Origin: a virus
DNA: 64,000 nt
IMG/VR virus record: IMGVR_UViG_3300027985_001833
Span: 1 to 64,000 of that record
Reading direction: 5' to 3' (one strand)
Positions 2,205 to 18,888 of the stretch are shown here, one piece after another. The translations under genes were made by a program, and so were the position numbers. Numbering within the stretch: position 1 is the stretch's first letter; each line of letters opens with the position of its first letter. The notes beneath the pieces are model-generated. The model was not told where the DNA came from. It worked only from the letters and a program-made list of their open reading frames with translations, and did no database searches.

Positions 2205-2233
2205 ATCATATGAATTAAATTATCGCGGTTCAA
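2205..2233 (-). promoter_or_regulatory. Sigma70-type promoter for the HU-like gene
   Basis: On the minus strand a -35 box TTGAAC (2228-2233) and a -10 box TATGAT (2205-2210) are separated by exactly 17 bp. The -35 overlaps the last codons of the polymerase gene. The -10 box is about 65 bp upstream of the HU-like ATG. Confidence 0.6.
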
Positions 2234-5200
2234 TTACTTTTGCCCCGCCACCATTATAGATATACGTAATCGCTTGCCAACGGCGTTGTTTTTCCAACGC
2301 CACTACGATCAAATCTCCAACGTTAAAATTACCTTTCAATTTCCTCCATTCAGAACCGAAACAGATAAAATCCAAATCCAAATCAACACCAGACATCGCC
2401 ACAAACGCCATCTCGTTTCCGCGTTTATCAATTTTTGTTTTAATGCTACAAACAACACCGCAATATGTCCCGCCCACACTACTTTTTTTGAATTTCGAAT
2501 TAGTAATACGTAATTCCCTCACCGTTTCAGTCTTCCAAACATGCGATAATGCCGGATGACGACCTGTGACCAAACGCTCCCATATACTCAAGTCTTTATT
2601 AGCAACCAACTTTTTTCTCAAAATTTCCAAATCAACTGCATATCTGGCCCTAATGTTAGAATACCTAGCGTTAACGACACAACTAACAACCACAGGCGTT
2701 CCAATTCCAGAATCTATGATTGGGCGCATTTCGTCAAAAATCTCAATATCAAATTTCACTCTATTCTGCTTGCCGCTGACATCCTCGATATTGACGTTGG
2801 CGTATCTGGCGCCCCAATTCATCGCCTCGCGTTCCTCTTCAGGCGGCAACTCTCCAGTGTGAAAATCGCCTATTTGATTGTATTTCACCTCAACCATCAT
2901 CCCTGCTATATAAACGACCTTGTTATCATTCGATTTGAAAAAATCTTCCTCGCCCATTGATTCAATACGTATTTTCAAATTTTCTTTAATAAAATCACCA
3001 TAGGCGTCAATCGGATGTTTACCAAACGCCAACGGGTTAACAGCAGAGGCAATCAACTGTCTTTCCTCTGATGCGTAATCAGGTTTATCCTTCGACTTCA
3101 ACAACATCTTCTTGACCTTCTTGTATCCGTTTTCCTTGCTCAACAAAGGCCAAATAACGTCTATTTCGTCGACGAACCACTTAACGTTAGGCAGCATATT
3201 TTCCAACGCCCCTGCCTTGGCCAATGCCACAATAACCCTTTTGTTACATTTACGGCGATCTATTCTGCCCAAAAAATCGAAAAAGCTCTCATATGGTTGG
3301 TTAGCAATAATGGTATCGGCAGCAGCCTCGCCGACGTTTTTGATATCGACTAGGCTGCCTCTAATTGCATTTTCTTGCCTGTCTATTGAGAATTGGACCT
3401 TAGATGTGTTCACAGACGGGGGCAACAGTTCTATGCCTGCCCTCTTTGCCTCCTTGGCTATTTGTTGAATGCGTTGTCTGGAAGGTTCGTTCTTGAGCAA
3501 CGCCCAATAGAATTCCAATGGATGCTTAATTTTCAGATACATCGAGAAATAAGCAATCATCCCATAAGCTGTAGCGTGGGAATTATGGCTAACAACTGGA
3601 TCATATTTATCTGGATCGCTGGTCGCTACGTAATTGTGTCCCTCTGTTGCCATCTCCAAATCGTAACAACGCTTTTTGCCCATAGAGATGATTTCAATTA
3701 TTTTATCCGCATACGTCGGTCTGCCTTTTTTCCACCTTTTTGTTCGCTCCCTTTTCTCGTAATCTTTTTTCTTGTGACACGAATTACAAAGCAATTGTAA
3801 ATTAGACTCGTGGTGATAAACGATATGATTATAATCACACTCCTCTGGTGTTCTATTGTGCGCAACTTCGTGCCCACCCCTACCCTTGCACCCTTTTTCT
3901 CCGCACAACTCGCATGCGCCTTTTGCCCGCTCCCAGATTTTTTCGCACGTACACTTGTATTCTTCGTTGTTTCTGAACGATTGCGAAAATCTGGTGTCTT
4001 TATTCATCCACCAAACGCAATAATCCTTACTGGTGTTTTCGCCCATAAATAACAATTCGTCTCCAACCGATAATCCGGTATTCAACGATTTATATCCACC
4101 AGAAGTCATCAAACGATGGGCGGCGCTTATCAACGGCGTACGATTGCCATTCTCGGTGATCAACTCAAAAACTTCAATTTCACCGTGATCGTGTATATCA
4201 ACCAAACGCCCCGGTCTACAACGACCATCGGAATCCATTTGAATTATATCAATACCGCGATAACGCATTTTTTGTGCTATTGGCGTCAATGCTCCCTTGG
4301 ACCACTTTTTCAAATGAGGATGCCAAACTGGTTCCGTTCTAGAATCACGAGCAGCAACTAAATCCTTAATCGTCACCCAAGGCGTTCCTTGTTTTTGATG
4401 AGTTCCCGCTCTCAAAACATACGAATTTTCCCATAAAGTTTTGTTAAATCCGTAACTCCCAAAAAAGGTGATTGTGTCCATTATCTTATTGGCTTGGGCC
4501 TCAGTCATGTCTGGCGTGTTCTTCATCGCTCCCTTCACAAAATTCTCACGCTCTTTGCCAATCGTTTCATCGCCCTTCTTTTTAGCAATCGCCTTCCTCA
4601 ATGAATCGCTCGTGCCCGGAGCAAATCCCGCTATTTCATTAAAAATCCTGATCACGTGCTCCTGATACACCATGATTCCAAGCGTATCGGATGTAATTTC
4701 AGTCACTTTCGGATGAATTGACGCTTTCCCAATCAACTTAGGATTTTTTTTCCTTTTCACAAACTCAGTGGCCAAACCGCTCCTGGCCGTTCCGGGACGG
4801 TTCAACGCCGTCATGGCAGCCACGTCGCTAAAATCCGTAAATGGAACACCCTCGCATATCTTATCAGCACCAGGGGTATCGTATTGAAAAATGCCAGAAT
4901 AATTGTGATCTGTGAACCCTTGTAACACTTCATGTATGTTGAGGTCTAATTTCTCCAAATCTATCCATTCTCCAGTGTGTTTTTCAATCGCTTCAACGCA
5001 TTCTCTCAACACGGTCAAAGTTCTCAACCCCAAAACGTCTAATTTCACCAAGCCCATCGCTCCAACGCCATACATATCTATCGCGGTCACCAACACATCC
5101 TCGCCATTACTTTTCCTGATCTCCAACGGCACATACTCGGTCAAAGGCTCTGGCGAAACGACAACGCCTGCAGCATGGACACCCAAATTTTTAGCCATAT

Positions 5201-6881
5201 TTTCCAATCGCTTAGCGTGTTTCAATACAAACGGATATTTTTTATCAAACTCTCTACAAACTTTGAAATCCTTGAATGAATCCTCAATGGTTTGGCTGGC
5301 TCTTTCATCTCCGCTGGAGCGCTCAATGATTGAGTTAGTAATAACGTTAACCTCCAAATATGGAACCTCGTAAACCCTGGAAATGTCTTTGACACACTGT
5401 TTCCCGGATAAACGACCTATGGTGGCAATTTGAGCAACTCTGTCTGTGCCATATTTGTCTCTAAGATAACCCATGATTTCTTTTCTTCTAATGTCTTCAA
5501 AATCCATATCAATGTCAGGCATATCCACACGCTCTGGATTCAAAAATCTCTCGAAAATCAAATCATGTTCAATCGGATCAACAGAAGTCAAGCCCATCAG
5601 GTAAGCAACCAAACATCCTGCCACGGAACCACGTCCAGGCCCGCACATTATTCTATTCGTTCTTGCCCAATTATAAATGTCGTAAACCATCAAAAAATAT
5701 GGAACAAATTTTTGAACCCTGATAGAACTAAGTTCGTGAACCAAGCGCTCTTTATAAACCTGCTTCATATGAGCAGTTGACACACCTCTTTTCTGAGCCA
5801 AGATGGCAGCCCGCCTTGAAATTTCTCTCCACGTCCAACCTTGAAAACACAAATCTTTCAAATAATCCCATTCCGTTTTGAACTTGCCGGGCAACTGCAT
5901 TTTTGGGAGAAGAGCGGCGTGCCAATCGATATTCAGCCTGGCCGTTATCGTTTCGTTAAATTCCATTGTCCCATTCAACGCTGCTATGATATTCTGCTCG
6001 CCCATATATCCGTGTCTTTTAACAAAGGCTTGATACATTTGTTTGCGGCTCTTGAGAAAAAAATCGTTTCCATCAAATCTGAATCTCTCTGGATTGGATA
6101 TATGATCGTTAGTGCCGATGCAAAGAAGCACTTCGTGATGAATGTGATCCCCTTCCCAAACATAATGTGCATCCTGGGTAGCTATGAATTTGGCGTCCCC
6201 CCACCTTTCTTTCAACTCCATGGCAAATCTATTCGCCGTGATTTGATCATCTATGGCATGCGGCTGAACCTCAATCCACAAATCTTCGCCAAATTTATCA
6301 CGCAATCTATCAGCGATTTCCAAGGCTTGACGCTTTTTACCGGCGCACACCCTGTCGTAGATGACAGACGACATACATCCGGTTCCCACAACCAACCCAT
6401 CGCCGTGCTCAATTAAAGCATCCAAGTCTATTCTAGGTTTGTAGTAAAAACCATCAACGTAAGCAGCCGTGGACAACCTAAACAGATTCTTCAACCCCTC
6501 ATTATTCTTAGCCCAAACGGTCAAGTGCCAACGGTCGCGAATTCCGTGTTCACTCTCATACTTCTTAATTGCGGCCTTTCTCTCATTAGGTTTCAACCCT
6601 TTGGTGATTTCGGCCTTTTCATCCTCCGTGAGCCCTTTTCGGTGCATATCGTTGCTCACATAGAACTCAATGCCGTGAATGGCCTTTATGCCAGCATCCT
6701 CACACGCCATGTGAGACGCATAATAACCCCTCATTGACCCGTGTTCTGTGAACGCTATGGCAGGTTGCCCCAACTCCGCTGCTCTCTGTGCGTAATCGGG
6801 AATTTTCCCGCAACCGTCAAGTTGACTCATGTCAGAATGAGTGTGAAGGTGAACAAAATCGTCTTTTTCTTTTTTTGCCAT
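2220..6881 (-). CDS. dnaE: DNA polymerase III alpha subunit (DnaE) with intein
   Basis: This 1553-aa precursor is the replicative C-family DNA polymerase. The N-terminal PHP domain begins HLHTHSDMSQLDG (residues 11-23). The polymerase core carries the catalytic aspartates in PDIDMDFED (about residue 450) and the finger motif SYGFNK...SHATAY, which the intein splits. Without the 286-aa intein (residues 815-1100) the mature enzyme is about 1267 aa, slightly longer than the usual 1150-1200. The C-terminal part, ending in an OB-like segment, replaces tau/beta-binding regions less clearly. The ATG at 6881 follows the kinase stop by one base, so both are in one operon with ThyX. The phage therefore copies its DNA with a bacterial-type enzyme rather than a family A or B polymerase. 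Confidence 0.93.
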   Translation of the reverse strand: MAKKEKDDFVHLHTHSDMSQLDGCGKIPDYAQRAAELGQPAIAFTEHGSMRGYYASHMACEDAGIKAIHGIEFYVSNDMHRKGLTEDEKAEITKGLKPNERKAAIKKYESEHGIRDRWHLTVWAKNNEGLKNLFRLSTAAYVDGFYYKPRIDLDALIEHGDGLVVGTGCMSSVIYDRVCAGKKRQALEIADRLRDKFGEDLWIEVQPHAIDDQITANRFAMELKERWGDAKFIATQDAHYVWEGDHIHHEVLLCIGTNDHISNPERFRFDGNDFFLKSRKQMYQAFVKRHGYMGEQNIIAALNGTMEFNETITARLNIDWHAALLPKMQLPGKFKTEWDYLKDLCFQGWTWREISRRAAILAQKRGVSTAHMKQVYKERLVHELSSIRVQKFVPYFLMVYDIYNWARTNRIMCGPGRGSVAGCLVAYLMGLTSVDPIEHDLIFERFLNPERVDMPDIDMDFEDIRRKEIMGYLRDKYGTDRVAQIATIGRLSGKQCVKDISRVYEVPYLEVNVITNSIIERSSGDERASQTIEDSFKDFKVCREFDKKYPFVLKHAKRLENMAKNLGVHAAGVVVSPEPLTEYVPLEIRKSNGEDVLVTAIDMYGVGAMGLVKLDVLGLRTLTVLRECVEAIEKHTGEWIDLEKLDLNIHEVLQGFTDHNYSGIFQYDTPGADKICEGVPFTDFSDVAAMTALNRPGTARSGLATEFVKRKKNPKLIGKASIHPKVTEITSDTLGIMVYQEHVIRIFNEIAGFAPGTSDSLRKAIAKKKGDETIGKERENFVKGAMKNTPDMTEAQANKIMDTITFFGSYGFNKTLWENSYVLRAGTHQKQGTPWVTIKDLVAARDSRTEPVWHPHLKKWSKGALTPIAQKMRYRGIDIIQMDSDGRCRPGRLVDIHDHGEIEVFELITENGNRTPLISAAHRLMTSGGYKSLNTGLSVGDELLFMGENTSKDYCVWWMNKDTRFSQSFRNNEEYKCTCEKIWERAKGACELCGEKGCKGRGGHEVAHNRTPEECDYNHIVYHHESNLQLLCNSCHKKKDYEKRERTKRWKKGRPTYADKIIEIISMGKKRCYDLEMATEGHNYVATSDPDKYDPVVSHNSHATAYGMIAYFSMYLKIKHPLEFYWALLKNEPSRQRIQQIAKEAKRAGIELLPPSVNTSKVQFSIDRQENAIRGSLVDIKNVGEAAADTIIANQPYESFFDFLGRIDRRKCNKRVIVALAKAGALENMLPNVKWFVDEIDVIWPLLSKENGYKKVKKMLLKSKDKPDYASEERQLIASAVNPLAFGKHPIDAYGDFIKENLKIRIESMGEEDFFKSNDNKVVYIAGMMVEVKYNQIGDFHTGELPPEEEREAMNWGARYANVNIEDVSGKQNRVKFDIEIFDEMRPIIDSGIGTPVVVSCVVNARYSNIRARYAVDLEILRKKLVANKDLSIWERLVTGRHPALSHVWKTETVRELRITNSKFKKSSVGGTYCGVVCSIKTKIDKRGNEMAFVAMSGVDLDLDFICFGSEWRKLKGNFNVGDLIVVALEKQRRWQAITYIYNGGGAKVIEPR
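3582..4439 (-). other. Intein with HNH endonuclease inserted in DnaE (Thr1, HN/Ser+1)
   Basis: The 286-aa in-frame insertion separates GFNK from SHATAY in the polymerase active-site motif. Block A starts at Thr (TLWENSYVL). Block B has PLISAAHRL around intein residues 102-110, block F is CYDLEM...GHNYVA (258-272), and the end is VVSHN followed by extein Ser. Between blocks B and F lies an HNH nuclease with paired cysteines (C163/C165, C176/C179, C218/C221) and GGHEVAH...HHESN...CHKKK, so the element looks mobile. The first residue is Thr where Cys or Ser is normal. The position-4 residue of block F is Asp, which argues against a class 3 intein. Splicing itself is not shown by sequence. Confidence 0.9.
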
Positions 6882-6882
6882 C

Positions 6883-7446
6883 TTAGACGCCTAACATGCG
6901 CAATATCCTATCAACGGTGTGCCTCGGGTCGCCTTGTTTCGTATCGATTTTGATTTTTGGAATAGTGATCATCTTCCAAACTTTATCGAATCTCTTTTGA
7001 ATGGCGGTGTAATCCTTTTTATTCGGACACCATCTGACATCCCCGACGCAACGGCTCTTGGCAACCTCATAAGCAACATCCAATTGAACGTAAACAAGCT
7101 TTCCTCTGGAACCTTGCTTGATTCTTTCTTCCCACCACTTGATCATGCTTTTGTAATTCGAGCTATCACCGGCGCAATCGTAAGCAATCGCAGATGGAAG
7201 AGAACGGTCAAGGATTATTCCAGGACTAGTCTTAGACACAAGGTCTGCCACAACCAAATCTTCCCAAAACGTATTAACCGAAACGCCCCATCTTTGTAAA
7301 TCACCGTAATCTCTTTCACCAGTAACCTTGTTGGGCCGTTTCACATCTTCAAACGGCTTGTACAGAACAAGAGTCGTCAGACCTTTCAACAAATTGGCAA
7401 CCGTCGTTTTCCCCGTCCCGTTAATCCCTTCCAACACAACAATCAT
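6883..7446 (-). CDS. Thymidylate-kinase-like dNMP kinase
   Basis: This 187-aa P-loop protein has a Walker A EGINGTGKTT (residues 6-15) and the dNMP-kinase DRS motif followed by AIAYD (80-89), both typical of thymidylate kinases. The length is a little below the bacterial Tmk norm of 200-213 aa. Family members phosphorylate dTMP or, in some phages, a modified dUMP derivative such as hydroxymethyl-dUMP. The start codon overlaps the ThyX stop (TAATG), so the two are translationally coupled. That supports the kinase acting on the ThyX-like product. Whether the substrate is dTMP or a modified nucleotide cannot be read here; a DNA-base kinase is less likely given the DRS motif. Confidence 0.78.
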   Translation of the reverse strand: MIVVLEGINGTGKTTVANLLKGLTTLVLYKPFEDVKRPNKVTGERDYGDLQRWGVSVNTFWEDLVVADLVSKTSPGIILDRSLPSAIAYDCAGDSSNYKSMIKWWEERIKQGSRGKLVYVQLDVAYEVAKSRCVGDVRWCPNKKDYTAIQKRFDKVWKMITIPKIKIDTKQGDPRHTVDRILRMLGV

Positions 7447-8438
7447 TATATCTTCTCACCAGTCGCAGGATTTCTTCTCCAAAATTTTCGATATTGAACC
7501 GCTCTATCAATCATCTCTTTCCACATATTGATATTATCAGCCGTGGCCAAACCGCCTAAATCAACCATACTATCGACGTAATCGCCTTGGCCATCAAAAT
7601 AATGGTGCTTGGCAAGATGAAGCGGGCAAGGCGGCAACTCGTCATCACCGTCCAAACGCCTTTGACACTCTTCCATATAGATACACTCTTTGAATTTATC
7701 GTCATCCCCGATGCAAGGCGGTTTGACCAAATCGGCGAAAATCGGATTCACCTTGTTCACCAATTCTTCAATCATCCCCATGATGACCGGTCCCCAAATC
7801 CCGAGTTGAAGAATAAAACAAGACCTTTTGCCTACTATATGCTGAAGCGAACCGATATTAAGCTTCCAACTGATGCGGTGATGAGCGCCCAACGGCAGCA
7901 ACTCTCTTGCGTCTTCCATAGGGATTCCCAATTCAATCAACTTACTATAAGCCCTTTGGATAGCATAGATAGTATCTTGATAAATATCGCTAGCCATCTC
8001 TCCAGCGTCAACGATTGTTTTAGGCAAACGATATTCGCCATTAACCGCAAATTTGTCGACCTTTCGAATACGATGGGATTGGCTCCACCAACTAGATGAA
8101 GCAAGATCTGGTATAATATCCAATCCCATCCTTTCTGGAGAAATCAACGTTCCTATGCGATGTCTGACCGCTTGTTCACGCCAGCTGATGGAAACGTTTT
8201 CAATTAAAAATACAAAATCTATATGTTCACCAATCGGTATACGCTGGGCGATTACGGCTTTGAACAATTTCTCCACCTCTTCAGCAGGAACTTTTTCTCT
8301 CACTTCTTCTGGCAACATCAGGGGCTCATCATCTTTCGACGCCATCCAAACAGAGTAAACAGTTTCCAAAGGGAATTGCGTCCAAGACAATAGTGTTATT
8401 CTCGGTTCATTATTCATCATCATCAAATTCCTCATCAT
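7446..8438 (-). CDS. Divergent ThyX-like flavin-dependent pyrimidine-nucleotide enzyme
   Basis: ThyX enzymes methylate dUMP using FAD, NADPH and methylene-THF. This 330-aa protein keeps the ThyX framework: an EHIDFVFLIENVSISWREQAVRHR core (residues about 98-121) and a C-terminal WKLNIGSLQHIV...R...Q pattern. However, RHR is followed by IGTLISPERMG instead of the signature with Ser ten residues on, and a Cys-rich tail (CIGDDDKFKEC...EEC...PPCPLH) is added after residue about 240. It is longer than the usual 220-260 aa. Several in-frame Met codons lie near the start and I keep the longest. The altered signature leaves open an ordinary thymidylate synthase or a variant adding another group, such as hydroxymethyl. 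Confidence 0.72.
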   Translation of the reverse strand: MMRNLMMMNNEPRITLLSWTQFPLETVYSVWMASKDDEPLMLPEEVREKVPAEEVEKLFKAVIAQRIPIGEHIDFVFLIENVSISWREQAVRHRIGTLISPERMGLDIIPDLASSSWWSQSHRIRKVDKFAVNGEYRLPKTIVDAGEMASDIYQDTIYAIQRAYSKLIELGIPMEDARELLPLGAHHRISWKLNIGSLQHIVGKRSCFILQLGIWGPVIMGMIEELVNKVNPIFADLVKPPCIGDDDKFKECIYMEECQRRLDGDDELPPCPLHLAKHHYFDGQGDYVDSMVDLGGLATADNINMWKEMIDRAVQYRKFWRRNPATGEKI

Positions 8439-8610
8439 CGACGAGCGGATTTCTCGTGTTCCACTCTTCCAATTCTTTTTCGTTGTTTATCCACTGCGAC
8501 TTCCATCTTTCTATAAACAACCAACAATAGTCCTTGTGAACTATTCTCCATTTTCCTTTATACAATTCAATTTCTGCGTCGCAAAACGGACAATCTTTTG
8601 GAACTTTCAT
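8410..8610 (-). CDS. Lar-like small zinc-finger protein
   Basis: This 66-aa protein begins with CPFCDAEIE followed by a HKDYC half-site and an aromatic W...W...W.TRN tail, the pattern of phage Lar-type (restriction-alleviation) zinc proteins, and ends in an acidic patch. Function is inferred from the pattern only. Its ribosome site (AGGTG) falls inside the T-arm of a broken tRNA immediately upstream. Its end overlaps the ThyX start. Confidence 0.55.
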   Translation of the reverse strand: MKVPKDCPFCDAEIELYKGKWRIVHKDYCWLFIERWKSQWINNEKELEEWNTRNPLVDDEEFDDDE

Positions 8611-8668
8611 TTCGCACCTGCAACCAGTGGTTTACAACACCGCCGCTCTACCATTGGGCCACCCGGCC
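8611..8668 (-). pseudogene. Truncated tRNA remnant, tRNA-Thr(UGU)-like
   Basis: On the minus strand the sequence reads as a tRNA from its 5' end: acceptor strand GGCCGGG, a D-arm with AATGGTAGAGC, an anticodon loop GTTGTAA giving anticodon UGU (plus-strand 8634-8636), and the start of a T-arm GCAGG-TGCGAAA. The returning T-stem and 3' acceptor strand are missing and the sequence passes directly into the Lar-like start codon. One D-stem and one anticodon-stem pair are mismatched and position 32 is G. It therefore looks like a decayed tRNA, not a working one. The retained T-arm now supplies the downstream gene's ribosome site. Confidence 0.55.
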
Positions 8669-8680
8669 AACTCTAATCAT

Positions 8681-8788
8681 TCACAAATTATAGATGTCAT
8701 CGGGATTCTTGCCCGCCGCTTTGTACCCCTTCGCGTACATGGCCATATCCAAAAAACGCATTTCACCGCCACAATTCAAGCATTTCAT
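8681..8788 (-). CDS. Possible 35-aa CxxC micro-protein
   Basis: The short frame encodes MKCLNCGGEM followed by a hydrophilic tail and ends just before the tRNA remnant. It overlaps the last codons of the aminotransferase in another frame. The single CxxC could bind zinc as a dimer. There is no clear ribosome site, so it may depend on translational coupling. This call is weak. Confidence 0.35.
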   Translation of the reverse strand: MKCLNCGGEMRFLDMAMYAKGYKAAGKNPDDIYNL

Positions 8789-9926
8789 TATACACATCGC
8801 AAAGGATGATCAAGCCTTCATTCAAATCTTCAATTGAGATATTCAAAGGCGGCGTAATTTTAATCGGTCCTGGACCCTTCCTAAAAGCTCCTATTATCAA
8901 ACCGCGCTTCAAACATCTATCGGCCAATTCCAAACAATCCACTTGGCTATCGTAGGCAAGCAACATTCCTGCCCCTCTGGCATCAACATCCAAATTGATT
9001 TTCAAAGTATTTCTGATTATATCGCCCTTTTCTTGGATATCTTCCAAATTGCCTTCATCCTCCAACCAATCCAACATAGTATCAACATATGAACAAGATG
9101 CAGGATTGCCCCCAAAAGTTGAAAAATGTGAACCTGGCGTAAAAGCCTGGGCAATGTCATTTCGTGCTAACATTGCTCCAACCGGAAATCCCATTCCAAT
9201 CCCTTTAGCCAAGGTGACAATATCAGGCTGAATTTTAGCCAATTGCCCATATGTTATGCCACCACACCGACCCATACCGGTTTGAACCTCATCAAAAATC
9301 AACAATATGCCGTTCAGTTCAGCATATCGTTTCAAATTTTCCAACCAACTCCAATCTGGAACGCGCACATCATTATTGCCGAATATTGGTGAAAGTATAA
9401 TTGCGGCAGCAGTGGGCGGAATCTCATAAATATCCGTGAAATGATGGAAATCGCCAGGCAAATTTCCAAATCCATCATAATGATAACTCGGTCCATCACC
9501 GGCTGCCAACGCACCATATGTACGCCCATGGAATCCGTCTTTTTGAGACCATATTTGGAAAGTGCGAGCTTCATCCTCAGCAAATCTATCATATTGATAT
9601 TTCCTTGCCAACTTGATAGCAGCCTCCACGGATTCCGTGCCGCTATTGCACCAAAATACCCTATCCATCCCGGTCGCTTTGCACAAACGCTTTGAAACCT
9701 GATTTCTCAAAGAATATTGAAACAAATTCGGAGAGTGCAAAACGATTCCTTGGGCCAACGCTTGAGCAGCCAGCACATGCTGCTCGCAACCATACCCAAG
9801 GCTGGCCGTCCCCACGTCTGTGAAAAAATCCAAATATTCATTCCCACCATAGGTAACGAGCCGTGAACCATTGCCGCCCACAAACACCAAATCCTTGAAT
9901 TTCAACGTATTCATGATGCTATGCAT
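8763..9926 (-). CDS. Class III PLP-dependent aminotransferase
   Basis: This 387-aa enzyme carries the hallmarks of the class III (acetylornithine / glutamate-1-semialdehyde) aminotransferase fold. These are NSGTESVEAAIKLAR (PLP phosphate-binding, about 94-108), GFHGRTYG (131-138), IFDEVQTGMGR (210-220) and the catalytic lysine in TLAKGIGMGFPVGA (K241). It moves an amino group between an amine or amino acid and an aldehyde or ketone, and appears catalytically intact. Its start overlaps the end of the pyrophosphatase/HAD gene. In a phage nucleotide operon it may aminate an oxidised base or a sugar nucleotide. A role in amino-acid metabolism is also possible, as the substrate cannot be read from sequence. 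Confidence 0.85.
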   Translation of the reverse strand: MHSIMNTLKFKDLVFVGGNGSRLVTYGGNEYLDFFTDVGTASLGYGCEQHVLAAQALAQGIVLHSPNLFQYSLRNQVSKRLCKATGMDRVFWCNSGTESVEAAIKLARKYQYDRFAEDEARTFQIWSQKDGFHGRTYGALAAGDGPSYHYDGFGNLPGDFHHFTDIYEIPPTAAAIILSPIFGNNDVRVPDWSWLENLKRYAELNGILLIFDEVQTGMGRCGGITYGQLAKIQPDIVTLAKGIGMGFPVGAMLARNDIAQAFTPGSHFSTFGGNPASCSYVDTMLDWLEDEGNLEDIQEKGDIIRNTLKINLDVDARGAGMLLAYDSQVDCLELADRCLKRGLIIGAFRKGPGPIKITPPLNISIEDLNEGLIILCDVYNEMLELWR

Positions 9927-10860
9927 CTATTTTCTCCTTGTGAATGTTGTGAACAATTTCCTGCCAACTATTCACCGTTTTCACCAACGGCGCATCAACT
10001 TCCTTCTCTCCTTTTAAATCCAAAAGAAACACTGTAATGCCTAACGCTGAAACCTCCAGCGCGTGTTTCTCTCTGTCCTCAACAAACCATTGCGGAAACG
10101 CAGGTTTAAGATGATCACAGATAATTTCCGCTTTATCCCTACCAAATAACAACAAATCATACGGAACGCCGTATCTATCCAACCACCGTATTGTATCAGA
10201 GTACAATCTTTTGTGTTTTTTGTATGGGCGAGCTGTTATTATGGCTACTTTATAACCGATTTCTTTGAATAATTTAATACATTCAATTGAGTTGTCAATT
10301 GGAGACAAGTCAAGAAATTTCCCTTTTTCTCTCCATTCAAATTTTAACGCTTCTTGTTTGGCCAGAATCTGACTTGGCGATTCACAAGAGTTGGCTATTT
10401 CAGCCAACTCATCATCCAACGGTCCCAAATCAACAACACAACCATCTAAATCCAAACCAATCAACCGAGAATCGCTTGTCAATTTGGCTTGCGCTACTTT
10501 TACTCGATGTCGAATCACTTCTGTTTTGCGAATGAACCTATTATAAAATTCTTCGTGCGTAATTCCATATAAATGCATCAATGATATTAAGTATTTGATT
10601 ACATCAACCGCTTCCTCAAGTATGGCGCTTTCACTTATCCTCAAATCCCCCAAAATGTGCTCTTTGTAATTAGTGGACGCCGATGCCAACTCCGTCACTT
10701 CTTCGTTCAACCCAATGATAAAATCCTTGGCTAATGCTAATTTATCCACTTCCGGCATATCGCCAGAGCCAAACCCAAATTCCTGTTGCTGGAAAGCTTG
10801 TGCGCTCCAAATTTTTTCCAATTTACAACATTTAATGTTTGAATTTTGATCAAACGGCAT
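9919..10860 (-). CDS. NTP pyrophosphatase-like domain fused to HAD phosphatase domain
   Basis: The 313-aa protein has two domains. The N-terminal about 120 residues are all-alpha with NEEVTELA and EEAVDVIKY helices, the EExxE...ExxD metal pattern of MazG/dUTPase-type NTP pyrophosphatases. The C-terminal half is a HAD hydrolase with DLDGCVV (nucleophile and acid), IITARP and a late FVEDREKHA aspartate motif, as in 5'-nucleotidase-like HADs. Together they could take a dNTP to dNMP and then to the nucleoside, removing an unwanted nucleotide. I choose the ATG at 10860 (site GAGGGA) over an upstream frame extension. Its downstream end overlaps the aminotransferase. Confidence 0.7.
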   Translation of the reverse strand: MPFDQNSNIKCCKLEKIWSAQAFQQQEFGFGSGDMPEVDKLALAKDFIIGLNEEVTELASASTNYKEHILGDLRISESAILEEAVDVIKYLISLMHLYGITHEEFYNRFIRKTEVIRHRVKVAQAKLTSDSRLIGLDLDGCVVDLGPLDDELAEIANSCESPSQILAKQEALKFEWREKGKFLDLSPIDNSIECIKLFKEIGYKVAIITARPYKKHKRLYSDTIRWLDRYGVPYDLLLFGRDKAEIICDHLKPAFPQWFVEDREKHALEVSALGITVFLLDLKGEKEVDAPLVKTVNSWQEIVHNIHKEKIDA

Positions 10861-10904
10861 AGATTCCCTCGCGATTAAAACCTTGACGCACGAGACGCGC
10901 CATA

Positions 10905-11891
10905 TTACAACCATTTCTCGGCTAATTCAATTGCGTTTTCCAAAATTTTATCAACGGTTCCACGCGAATTCCATTCAGCAAAACGACCCAATGGCGCCAT
11001 ATTTTCCGGCCACTGTATTTTTTCGCCCATTGGGTGCAAGTGCCCTTTCAAACCTCTTGTTATTTTTTTTATAACATAACCAGCACCGAATATAAAATTT
11101 AAATCAGAAACGACATCTACCATTCGTGGTGCCAATTCACCATTCACTTCACAAACGTAACACACACCATCAACAGAAAAACGATGAATAGCATCACCAG
11201 GCGTATATGGCGTATAGACATAGTCCCAACCAGCATATCTATCATTTTTTGGCACAACGTCAATCAAATTCAAATTCATCGCCATAGCATCAGGAATATA
11301 AAAATCAACCAATCTCTTGATAATCCACAACGGCACGGTGAAAATCAAATAGTCAAAAGCATACCGCCTTCCCTTATCAGTCATCAGAGAATTTTCGCCC
11401 AACACTTTGATCACTTTTTCCCTCACTATCTCGCCACCATCCCTTTTCAACCTTGCGGCCAACCTATTCACCATATCCACAAAATCCAACCTGATAGCGC
11501 CCTTGGAAATACTATTGGCTGGGTCATTCATGGCGGTCTTGTAATGGCTGCCTGGCTCCATCATCCTGGTTTTACGAAAATGGTCCATTTGAATTTGTGC
11601 GACCTTGTACTTGTCCATCCGTTGAAACAATTCCGGATAGCGTTCAACCACCCCTCTGTTAAGAATTCCGCCTTTCACGGAGTAGTTGGAAAAAACCAAC
11701 CCCAAATCGATGAACAAGCCCGTCATGTTATCAGTTCGGTGTATGTACTTCAAACCGCCAGCAAGAAATTCCCCGCCCAACTTACCACACTCAAACATCT
11801 TAACATGCGCCCCAAAACTGGAAAAAATGCATGAACTCACCAATCCAGCCACACCGCCACCGACAACCAAAACGTCTTTCGGTTTACTCAT
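10905..11891 (-). CDS. FAD-dependent oxidoreductase (amine-oxidase / protoporphyrinogen-oxidase-like)
   Basis: This 328-aa protein starts with a Rossmann dinucleotide motif DVLVVGGGVAGLVSS and a following acidic strand end (FE), typical of FAD-binding amine oxidases, desaturases and UDP-galactopyranose-mutase relatives. It is shorter than most family members (420-500 aa) and the substrate domain is poorly recognisable. It is the first gene of the candidate nucleotide operon, behind a promoter and a long inverted repeat at 11906-12008. I place the start at the ATG 11891 with GAGG five bases ahead; the longer frame would run through the inverted repeat. Paired with the aminotransferase, it could oxidise an alcohol or amine group, but this is inference. 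Confidence 0.75.
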   Translation of the reverse strand: MSKPKDVLVVGGGVAGLVSSCIFSSFGAHVKMFECGKLGGEFLAGGLKYIHRTDNMTGLFIDLGLVFSNYSVKGGILNRGVVERYPELFQRMDKYKVAQIQMDHFRKTRMMEPGSHYKTAMNDPANSISKGAIRLDFVDMVNRLAARLKRDGGEIVREKVIKVLGENSLMTDKGRRYAFDYLIFTVPLWIIKRLVDFYIPDAMAMNLNLIDVVPKNDRYAGWDYVYTPYTPGDAIHRFSVDGVCYVCEVNGELAPRMVDVVSDLNFIFGAGYVIKKITRGLKGHLHPMGEKIQWPENMAPLGRFAEWNSRGTVDKILENAIELAEKWL

Positions 11892-11905
11892 AAACGCCTC
11901 GCAAC

Positions 11906-11984
11906 ATAATAGGAAAACGCGCTGTCGAATGTGGAAACCGGCCAAAGTTTTGCCAGCAGATCGAGCAGCGCGTTTTCCTATTAT
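11906..11984 (-). ncRNA. Long inverted repeat: candidate structured leader/attenuator
   Basis: Two perfect 19-bp arms (11906-11924 and 11966-11984) flank 41 bp. On the minus strand the RNA would form a stem with a GC-rich core (CGCGCTG paired with CAGCGCG) ending in UUUUCC, like an intrinsic terminator with an enlarged loop. Inside the loop, CUGGC can pair with GCCGG over a 9-nt loop, and a UCGA/UCGA pair extends the stem past a bulge. It lies between a promoter and the FAD-oxidoreductase start, as an attenuator or riboswitch would. It matches no riboswitch class that I recognise. A protein operator with inverted half-sites is the main alternative. Confidence 0.5.
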
Positions 11985-12008
11985 ACCGTACAGCAATGTT
12001 CATAGCAA
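11980..12008 (-). promoter_or_regulatory. Sigma70-type promoter of the FAD-oxidoreductase operon
   Basis: The -35 box TTGCTA (12003-12008), a 17-bp spacer and a perfect -10 box TATAAT (11980-11985) lie on the minus strand. Five of the six -10 bases belong to the right arm of the inverted repeat, so transcription would start inside that arm. A repressor that bound the arms would also block this promoter. Confidence 0.65.
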
Positions 12009-12024: not shown

Positions 12025-12795
12025 TTATTCAGGCAAACCCAACACGCCAGCCGATACCAATTGACCAATACTTTCTGCCATTATGGATAATTTTCTTTTA
12101 TCCAACCCTTTAATTAATATATTGAAATTTTTATTTTTTCTCGATACCGGCTTCAATATTTCCAAATTGGCCTTAGATAGATTAAGCGTCATATCATCTA
12201 ATGCACAGGTCAATTCCGCATCAAATGTATCGGACGCAGGCCGCAGCTTCAGAAGAATCAATAAAGCATCCCTGCCGTAATTTGCACGAACATACACAGC
12301 CACATAACCGCTGGTTTTTGATCTATCCGCGACAAACAACTTTCCCGGAGTCGGGACTGTGCCTGCAATAGCAAATTCATATCCGGGCATGCTCTTCAAC
12401 AATCGTTGGACAAAAAAATCAAACTTTTTCAACAACTTTTCTCTTTTAATTTTAGCATTAGTCCTTTTGGCCTTCTTGGATGCCAAAATGGCAACACGAG
12501 ATGGCCCGTTGCGCCTAGCATCTTGTCTGCTTCGTTTTTTCCGCGCATTGGACAATTTATCGCAAAAACGCAAAAACGCCCCGTCATCACCGTTTGATTC
12601 AAATCCATCATCGGTCTCGGTCAAAAAAACACCCAAACTAAGTTTTTGATCTTTCAAATGATTTCTGAACGCTCTACAAATTCTTTTTAAATCACAAGGC
12701 TGCCGCTCATCCGAATCCGTTGAAGCGACATTGCCATCACAAGCACAATTGAATTTTTTATATCTCGAAAAACATTGCGGTAATTTATCGCCCAT
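12025..12795 (-). CDS. Unknown cysteine-containing protein
   Basis: I do not recognise this 256-aa protein. The N-terminus has a Cys cluster (C9, C17, C19, then QPCDLKRIC at about 33-41), possibly a metal site. The middle (residues 80-125) is very basic with many KK/RR pairs. The C-terminal half is mixed alpha/beta with a FAIAGTVPTPGKLF hairpin and ends in a helix SIGQLVSAGVLGL. It overlaps the end of the sigma-like gene by 11 bp, so the two are co-translated. Nucleic-acid binding is plausible from charge alone. Confidence 0.6.
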   Translation of the reverse strand: MGDKLPQCFSRYKKFNCACDGNVASTDSDERQPCDLKRICRAFRNHLKDQKLSLGVFLTETDDGFESNGDDGAFLRFCDKLSNARKKRSRQDARRNGPSRVAILASKKAKRTNAKIKREKLLKKFDFFVQRLLKSMPGYEFAIAGTVPTPGKLFVADRSKTSGYVAVYVRANYGRDALLILLKLRPASDTFDAELTCALDDMTLNLSKANLEILKPVSRKNKNFNILIKGLDKRKLSIMAESIGQLVSAGVLGLPE

Positions 12796-13888
12796 TCTTC
12801 GCCTTCCTCAATTCAGCAACCAAACATCCATACCAATCGACCGGGATTTTCTCTATGGTTCCTATATCTCCAAACAACAAACCTTGTATGACATCGAAGT
12901 GACCGACCAAAACCAAGGTACAACACTCTTTGCCTCGCTTTATAAGCATAACAACGCCCCAGTTATAAAAATCAATATCTCTAGTATAAATACCGTTTTC
13001 TTCACAAATCCTGTTTATCACAACGTCATCCAGAGACATTTTGGATATAATTTTTGAAATCAGTTTTTCATCTCTCTTATCCATTCTGCTGATGTGAATT
13101 ATCGGCCATCTTTTACTATTTACCATGTCACCGTACAGACTTATGAATTCATCTTTCTTGGCCAGCTTGGTAAAACGCCTCTTAATAGCGTGTATGGCCC
13201 ACGAAACTTGATTCATAGTCAAATCCAATTCTTGGGCAACATCATAAATTGTCTTTTTGCTTCCAAACAATATTTTGGTTAATCTATTTTGGGCCGACGA
13301 ATCGTCTATATCAAACAAACTAAAATAGACATCCCTTTCCCTGTCAGTCATCTCTTCCATTAATTTTTTTTCAAATTTCACCAACAAGTTGTAATTCTGC
13401 AGCTTGATTAATTGTTCACACGGATTTCCATCGATGCCAAAATTATGAATGATCTTGTGAAGCACATCTTCATCTATATTATTCAACTTCATAGCATTCA
13501 CACGAACACCATATTGATCGCAACTGTTATTCGCACATGCCCAAGCGCCCTTATTTTTCAACATAATTTTACCACATGCCCAACAAACGTATCTTCTTGG
13601 CGCGTTATTGACATAAGCTCCACAAGCTTGATATTGGTTTACCATCTTGGATAGCATCGGTATAAACATAGTGTCCAACACCTTACCCGCAAACGCTGCC
13701 AACGTTCCTCTTCTCGTATCATCATAATGACCCAAGGCATCCAGCAAAAACATCTTGGCCTCTTGCTTATAATCATCTATGGTGAAACTAGGATCCACAT
13801 TGGCTAGATAATCATATTTACGTGCCTTCATGTTTATCAACGAATCCAAACTTTTCAAAACTTCTACTGCTGATTTTTGGTGTACCAT
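12785..13888 (-). CDS. Sigma-factor-like protein with embedded zinc ribbon
   Basis: The 367-aa protein shows a region-2-like helix set near residues 35-75 (DDYKQEAKMFLLDALGHYD, then TLAAFAGKVL). It also has a region-4-like HTH near residues 185-235, with MTDRERDVY followed by KTIYDVAQELDLTMNQV and IHAIKRRF. Between them lies a four-cysteine zinc ribbon (C102, C105, C118, C123) not usual in sigma factors. A C-terminal domain of about 110 residues is unrecognised. It probably directs host RNA polymerase to phage promoters, for instance late ones. A second, purely structural DNA-binding role is possible. The gene has its own TATAAT-containing leader. Confidence 0.62.
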   Translation of the reverse strand: MVHQKSAVEVLKSLDSLINMKARKYDYLANVDPSFTIDDYKQEAKMFLLDALGHYDDTRRGTLAAFAGKVLDTMFIPMLSKMVNQYQACGAYVNNAPRRYVCWACGKIMLKNKGAWACANNSCDQYGVRVNAMKLNNIDEDVLHKIIHNFGIDGNPCEQLIKLQNYNLLVKFEKKLMEEMTDRERDVYFSLFDIDDSSAQNRLTKILFGSKKTIYDVAQELDLTMNQVSWAIHAIKRRFTKLAKKDEFISLYGDMVNSKRWPIIHISRMDKRDEKLISKIISKMSLDDVVINRICEENGIYTRDIDFYNWGVVMLIKRGKECCTLVLVGHFDVIQGLLFGDIGTIEKIPVDWYGCLVAELRKAKNGR

Positions 13889-18806: not shown

Positions 18807-18888
18807 CCTTCTTTTGCACATACTATTTCCCCTTACGGGGAAAATAGTATATACAAAAGAAGGAAAAATTGAGAAATCACAATTTTTC
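18807..18888. repeat. Long hairpin (57 bp) adjoining a second hairpin
   Basis: The first element (18807-18863) pairs CCTTCTTTTG with CAAAAGAAGG and, inside that, ATACTATTTCCCC with GGGGAAAATAGTAT (one extra base) around a TTAC loop, giving about 23 bp of stem. The second (18863-18888) pairs GAAAAATTG with CAATTTTTC over 8 bp. Both lie in the 229-bp gene-free stretch between the winged-helix gene and the next gene. They may form an origin structure or a transcription terminator. Confidence 0.8.

Follow-up and report, generated by a model that had tools for sequence, protein, structure and literature searches.

What is the role of a perfect inverted repeat that lies, overlapped by a promoter-like sequence, just ahead of a run of phage metabolic genes? 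The question was raised by a stretch of 64,000 nucleotides of an uncultured virus record (the window hereafter). The original prediction had proposed either an attenuator or riboswitch guarding a nucleotide operon, or a pair of half-sites for a dimeric regulator.

An inverted repeat between o256 and a metabolic gene run

The repeat itself was found as described. Its two arms (11906-11924 and 11966-11984) are 19 nt each, 100% complementary, and separated by a 41-nt loop that can fold further. The hexamers TTGCTA and TATAAT, 17 nt apart and overlapping one arm, and the terminator-like CAGCGCG-UUUU end 14 bases before the start region were also present as claimed. The repeat is located in the 133-nt gap between o256 and the FAD-oxidoreductase gene. 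The features are, in the direction of transcription:

12785-13888, minus strand: phage sigma-70-like factor, 367-codon ORF
12025-12795, minus strand: o256, directly upstream, 256 codons, with a Cys-rich N-terminus and a predicted MotA-like C-terminal domain
12003-12008, minus strand: -35-like hexamer TTGCTA
11980-11987, minus strand: GGTATAAT, GG followed by a consensus -10 TATAAT (11980-11985)
11966-11988, minus strand: 5′ arm of the hairpin P2, perfect over 19 nt (11966-11984), extended by G-U pairs to 11988
11937-11957, minus strand: inner hairpin GCUGGC-9 nt-GCCGGU, inside the P2 loop
11933-11945, minus strand: loop motif TTGGCCGGTTTCC
11902-11924, minus strand: 3′ arm of P2, perfect over 19 nt (11906-11924), extended to 11902
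11914-11917, minus strand: terminator-like UUUU following the stem's GC part
11897-11900, minus strand: Shine-Dalgarno-like GAGG of the FAD gene, from the sequence
10905-11891, minus strand: FAD-dependent oxidoreductase-like gene, first after the leader
2220-10914, minus strand: downstream gene run after the FAD gene
9919-10914, minus strand: MazG-like/HAD
8763-9926, minus strand: aminotransferase
7446-8438, minus strand: ThyX
6883-7446, minus strand: Tmk
2220-6881, minus strand: DnaE

Read as RNA from the minus strand, as are the surrounding genes, P2 comprises 23 pairs including G-U pairs, with additional helices (UCGA/UCGA and GCUGGC/GCCGGU) inside it. The predicted fold reached -50.1 kcal/mol (z -5.5), a value equalled by none of 200 shuffles. 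No other perfect inverted repeat in the window is as long; one repeat exceeds it in length but is 88% paired. Further copies of the arms were found neither in the window (up to 3 mismatches) nor in the rest of the 78,538-base record. The leader matched no Rfam family, and the exact hairpin pattern gave 0 matches in the viral and genome collections. Overall, the repeat forms an RNA hairpin ahead of a metabolic-enzyme gene and is probably a brake of the attenuator type on the operon, as opposed to a coincidental repeat or a binding site for a protein. The window has a further strong inverted repeat (18807-18863; 26-nt arms, 88% paired, 5-nt loop), located in the gap on the upstream side of the 17896-18708 gene.

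On the 3′ side of P2, CAGCGCG is followed by UUUU at positions 11917-11914; this U-run is short (UUUUCC) and contained in the 3′ arm. With a terminator score formula, the site reached -2.5, a value matched by none of 25 segments drawn at random from this sequence. P2 ends 10-14 nt from the ATG of the FAD gene (11891-11889), the larger value being counted from the perfect arm (11906). The promoter-like element, whose GGTATAAT lies within the outer arm of P2, agrees with the consensus at 10 of 12 positions. Approximately 12 sites of equal score occur per 20 kb on the minus strand, so that the promoter of the window taken alone is weak evidence; in this AT-rich DNA, approximately 0.08 such sites are expected in the 133-nt gap.

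The genes downstream correspond in part to the nucleotide operon that had been proposed. ThyX, Tmk, DnaE and MazG/HAD agree with this designation, whereas the run starts with an FAD oxidoreductase and includes an aminotransferase. ThyX, MazG/HAD, a class III aminotransferase and the FAD oxidoreductase occur in one gene run (7446-11891), which could have a role in thymidine modification instead of plain nucleotide supply. In DnaE, FGSYGFNK and SHATAYG are separated by some 280 additional residues, with an apparent Thr start, an HNH-like look and the ending ...VVSHN; this insertion is probably an intein. DnaE matches of similar extra length were seen in the related contigs L011, L014, L018, L019 and L021.

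Upstream, the 12785-13888 product belongs, as judged by profile comparison, to the sigma-70-like family: the family profile matches RpoD (E 2e-6), and Pfam recognised region 2 in 5 of 8 members (best 2e-6) and, weakly, region 4 in 2 members (best 0.033), the protein of the window itself being below the Pfam threshold. The alignment of these proteins was too divergent for use in scanning. In o256, the N-terminal cysteines are conserved. Its C-terminal domain, for which the structure prediction was confident, resembles the double-wing DNA-binding domain of T4 MotA. With VIA-align, MotA DNA-binding domains took ranks 1-3 (Z 7.7, 7.5 and 7.0) and unrelated folds reached Z 5.8 and below, with the warning that Z values under 8 may reflect merely a common arrangement; Foldseek alone gave non-significant E values of 0.03 and 0.016. 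L014 has the sigma-like and o256 regions joined in a single ORF (L014:5780-7651).

The leader in related lineages

DNA similarity to phages was not found, and the FAD and sigma proteins gave no matches in cultured phages. The DnaE search against cultured phages gave distant matches only, and relatives of the FAD protein in bacterial genomes were limited to a single fragmentary match. Related IMG/VR contigs were recovered by alignments of the DnaE, ThyX and FAD proteins. Because several contigs are duplicated or nearly so (L005/L007, L011/L012, L013/L017, L021/L031), counts refer to lineages, not contigs. The common gene order is primase, sigma-like factor, o256, FAD, MazG/HAD, aminotransferase/ThyX/Tmk and DnaE, with variations, and FAD protein identity is about 35-58% between most lineages. 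In L005, L006 and L008, DnaE directly follows FAD, and no MazG/HAD, aminotransferase, ThyX or Tmk was found between them.

A strong hairpin is present in the o256-FAD gap of 14 lineages of this uncultured phage group, namely the window and L006, L056, L009, L011, L013, L015, L018, L019, L020, L021, L026, L030 and L054. Except in the close pair L006/L056, the stem sequences are unrelated (for example GGCGGCACCCCA, GGGTGCCGTGCTG, TGGTGGCGCCTTGC, GCCGCACGGCGGTAGG and ACCGGCACCGCTC) while the pairing is kept, and the spacing of the arms varies from 10 to 41 nt. Relatives lacking compensatory change in the stem had been named as what would refute the original prediction; the relatives instead conserve the pairing with completely different sequences. 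An alignment of the hairpins with MAFFT was meaningless, the stems being unrelated. Because the stems cannot be aligned, the argument is one of pairing without sequence rather than of column-wise covariation statistics. Compared with dinucleotide shuffles, the gap folds gave z values from -3.2 to -6.4 in 9 of 11 lineages tested, those of L006 and L026 not being significant.

When about 370 kb, the record included, was scanned for terminator-like intergenic hairpins, the site was found in most lineages together with a few isolated others, P2 being nearly the sole recurrent one. Clear U-runs of 4-6 follow the stem in L009, L013, L015, L018, L019, L020, L021 and L054; the run is weak in L006, and L011, L026, L030 and L056 have no good one. 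P2 has the anatomy expected of an intrinsic terminator. Its stem ends 10-30 nt from the start codon, ribosome-binding site included, which leaves little space for a promoter 3′ of P2. A hairpin of P2-like build (18 bp, perfect, 39-nt loop, no U-run) is located just after thyX at L009:9132-9206.

The apical loop contains a short motif, first recognised as approximately GGCCGNTCTCTCC, for which a search-corrected shuffle test on 12 loops gave about 0.01. L054, found after the motif had been recognised, carries TTGGCCGATCTCC, with 14 nt identical to L006 and different stems. The motif of the window matches TTGGCCGATCTCC at 11 of 13 positions (p 0.001). Such a TTGGCCGATCTCC-like motif is common to many of the carriers, with no significant match in L015, L020, L026 and L030. 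A role of the motif as an anti-Shine-Dalgarno sequence was considered and rejected, the signal being weak (permutation p 0.03) and the window having no good match. Searching for a partner of the motif elsewhere on the same strand gave nothing convincing.

In the relatives, the promoter-like element is hidden in the end of o256. The C-terminal codons encode approximately G-[K/I]-I-x-L-P and, in carriers, contain the string GGTAnnAT, which is that of GGTATAAT in the window. The hexamers after GG are TATTAT, TATTCT, TAAGAT, TATCAT and TAAAAT, and TAGACT in L021. In the first set, the Gly codon is GGT in all 9 carriers having Gly there, although GGT makes up 10-40% of the Gly codons in those loci; the joint P of 7.7e-8 from codon usage is descriptive because the codon was picked after the pattern had been seen. 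As a control, nearby Gly codons of the same genes are GGT in 8 of 46 cases, as compared to 8.6 expected. The Leu codon is likewise TTG in 9/9 carriers (P 4e-5). The hairpin-less L008, L010 and L014 have GGC at the Gly position. In the later, small set, the carrier L056 has GGT and the non-carriers L055 and L064 have GGC and GGA, respectively. Carrier L054 has Asp at this place, and its GAT AAA ATA still yields TAAAAT. A -35 element, for the cellular or the phage sigma factor, was not recognisable in the relatives, and GGTAnnAT was absent from a list of large intergenic gaps elsewhere in the record; the o256-FAD gap itself fell outside that list, the ORF finder having set a mechanical TTG start for the FAD gene.

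Another hairpin, P1, begins about 7 nt past the -10-like element of the relatives, at the predicted +1, and reaches P2 or stops a little ahead of it; in 8 of 11 lineages its fold surpasses that of shuffled sequences (z -1.9 or lower). The window differs in having neither a -10 at the end of o256 nor P1.

Six related lineages have no hairpin (L005, L008, L010, L055, L064 and L014). In the first five, the stop of o256 overlaps the start of FAD or is no more than about 15 nt away from it; L014 has a 464-nt stretch between the two. The FAD protein of L055 is as close to that of L006 as is that of L056, yet L055 has no hairpin. Because the genes of the hairpin-less lineages mostly touch or nearly touch, the leader behaves as an all-or-none cassette. 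Promoter-like element, terminator hairpin and loop motif come and go together, which makes the cassette concrete and testable. Overall, the leader element is real and conserved, kept by its structure and loop motif despite the divergence of the FAD protein; it is attenuator-type by anatomy, with a putative function.

Readings of the leader

We lean, with modest confidence, towards P2 being the stem of an mRNA leader of the attenuator type, which would combine a promoter of its own with an intrinsic-terminator hairpin. According to this reading, the promoter at GGTATAAT would start the RNA inside the 5′ arm of P2 in the window. RNA polymerase would then make a hairpin of 13-23 bp, followed by U-rich sequence and the FAD gene's ribosome-binding site. 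P2 would stop part of the transcripts, both from this promoter and from the sigma/MotA-like genes, and the output of the operon would depend on read-through past P2. A trans-acting factor, likely in contact with the conserved loop motif, would change this read-through. The sequences themselves show the hairpin, its place, pairing kept despite changed stems, the loop motif and, in relatives, the hidden -10-like element; termination, promoter activity and the factor are what we infer. With promoter, terminator-type hairpin and ribosome-binding site in succession, operon transcripts must pass P2, and the most economical reading is therefore that termination is conditional or partial. An antiterminator helix mutually exclusive with P2 was not recognised, and the window has little RNA upstream of P2 for one. 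At the tR2 terminator, termination is suppressed when a ribosome stands at a stop codon close by, and its efficiency rises with distance (PMC4824070). P2 starts a few to about 50 nt past the o256 stop, and translation of o256 could, by analogy, modulate termination at P2.

As a tentative extension, which we hold to be unlikely, the leader may represent a new class of phage leader RNA, a terminator hairpin with a conserved TTGGCCGATCTCC-like apical motif that a protein of the phage recognises, possibly the sigma/MotA-like pair from the genes immediately upstream. If true, the transcription switch of the phage would also control elongation into the DNA-precursor operon.

The hairpin may instead protect or process the mRNA, as a 5′ stem blocking decay or, as in T7, as an RNase III site between genes transcribed together, with no termination. 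A duplex of up to 23 pairs, a U-run within the stem in the window, the four carriers L011, L026, L030 and L056 with no good U-run, and predicted 5′ ends at or just ahead of a hairpin all agree with such a role. However, U-runs directly follow the stem in 8 relatives, and neither function needs a conserved loop motif; we consider this explanation rather improbable.

P2 separates the sigma/o256 genes from the metabolic genes, and this place and its terminator anatomy are also what an unregulated terminator of the upstream replication/sigma operon would show, a fixed share of transcripts leaking into the next genes. Terminators can indeed stand just after stop codons, with a translation-dependent strength (PMC4824070). 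In contrast, the appearance and disappearance of the preceding promoter-like element with the hairpin, the conservation of the loop motif and the scarce space for a promoter between hairpin and FAD gene are not accounted for, making this an improbable reading.

The original prediction was right in describing an RNA hairpin with its own putative promoter and a terminator-like 3′ side before one operon; its metabolite- or nucleotide-sensing riboswitch found no specific support. A riboswitch with P2 as expression platform would suit the leader position, the metabolic operon downstream and the adjoining P1 of the relatives. It is very improbable given the lack of an Rfam match, of P1 in the window and of any conserved aptamer-like core besides the short loop motif, the only sequence shared. 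Finally, despite the perfect DNA symmetry and the promoter overlap in the window, the arms cannot serve a dimeric regulator as conserved operator half-sites, since their sequence and their spacing (10-41 nt) differ among relatives with pairing alone kept, and we give this idea almost no credence.

Relation to known systems

The leader, with no Rfam match, belongs to a phage group found here only in uncultured virus records, without a cultured relative by protein search, and its cassette adjoins the genes of a phage sigma factor and of a protein resembling MotA. Should a factor control read-through at P2, the leader would illustrate how the DNA-precursor genes of such phages are timed.

The T4 MotA/sigma appropriation system offers a parallel for o256 only. 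The predicted fold of its C-terminal domain resembles that of the MotA DNA-binding domain, whereas o256 has a Cys-rich N-terminus and adjoins a phage sigma-70-like factor. T7 RNase III sites and 5′ stabilising hairpins similarly place a long duplex between codirectional phage genes; most relatives here have, in contrast, a U-run and a terminator position. With lambda-type terminators controlled by antitermination, the leader shares a terminator within a phage unit, just past a stop codon and before further genes. Here, however, no N/Q or put-like element was identified, and the terminator is placed 10-30 nt ahead of a start codon. Attenuators and leader terminators (trp-type, PyrR-type, riboswitch platforms) have the same succession of promoter, hairpin(s), GC stem with U-run, Shine-Dalgarno sequence and metabolic operon. 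As compared to these, the leader described here has no leader peptide and no recognisable antiterminator or aptamer; its stem sequence is free while a short loop motif is kept, and the promoter-like element of the relatives is hidden in the preceding gene.
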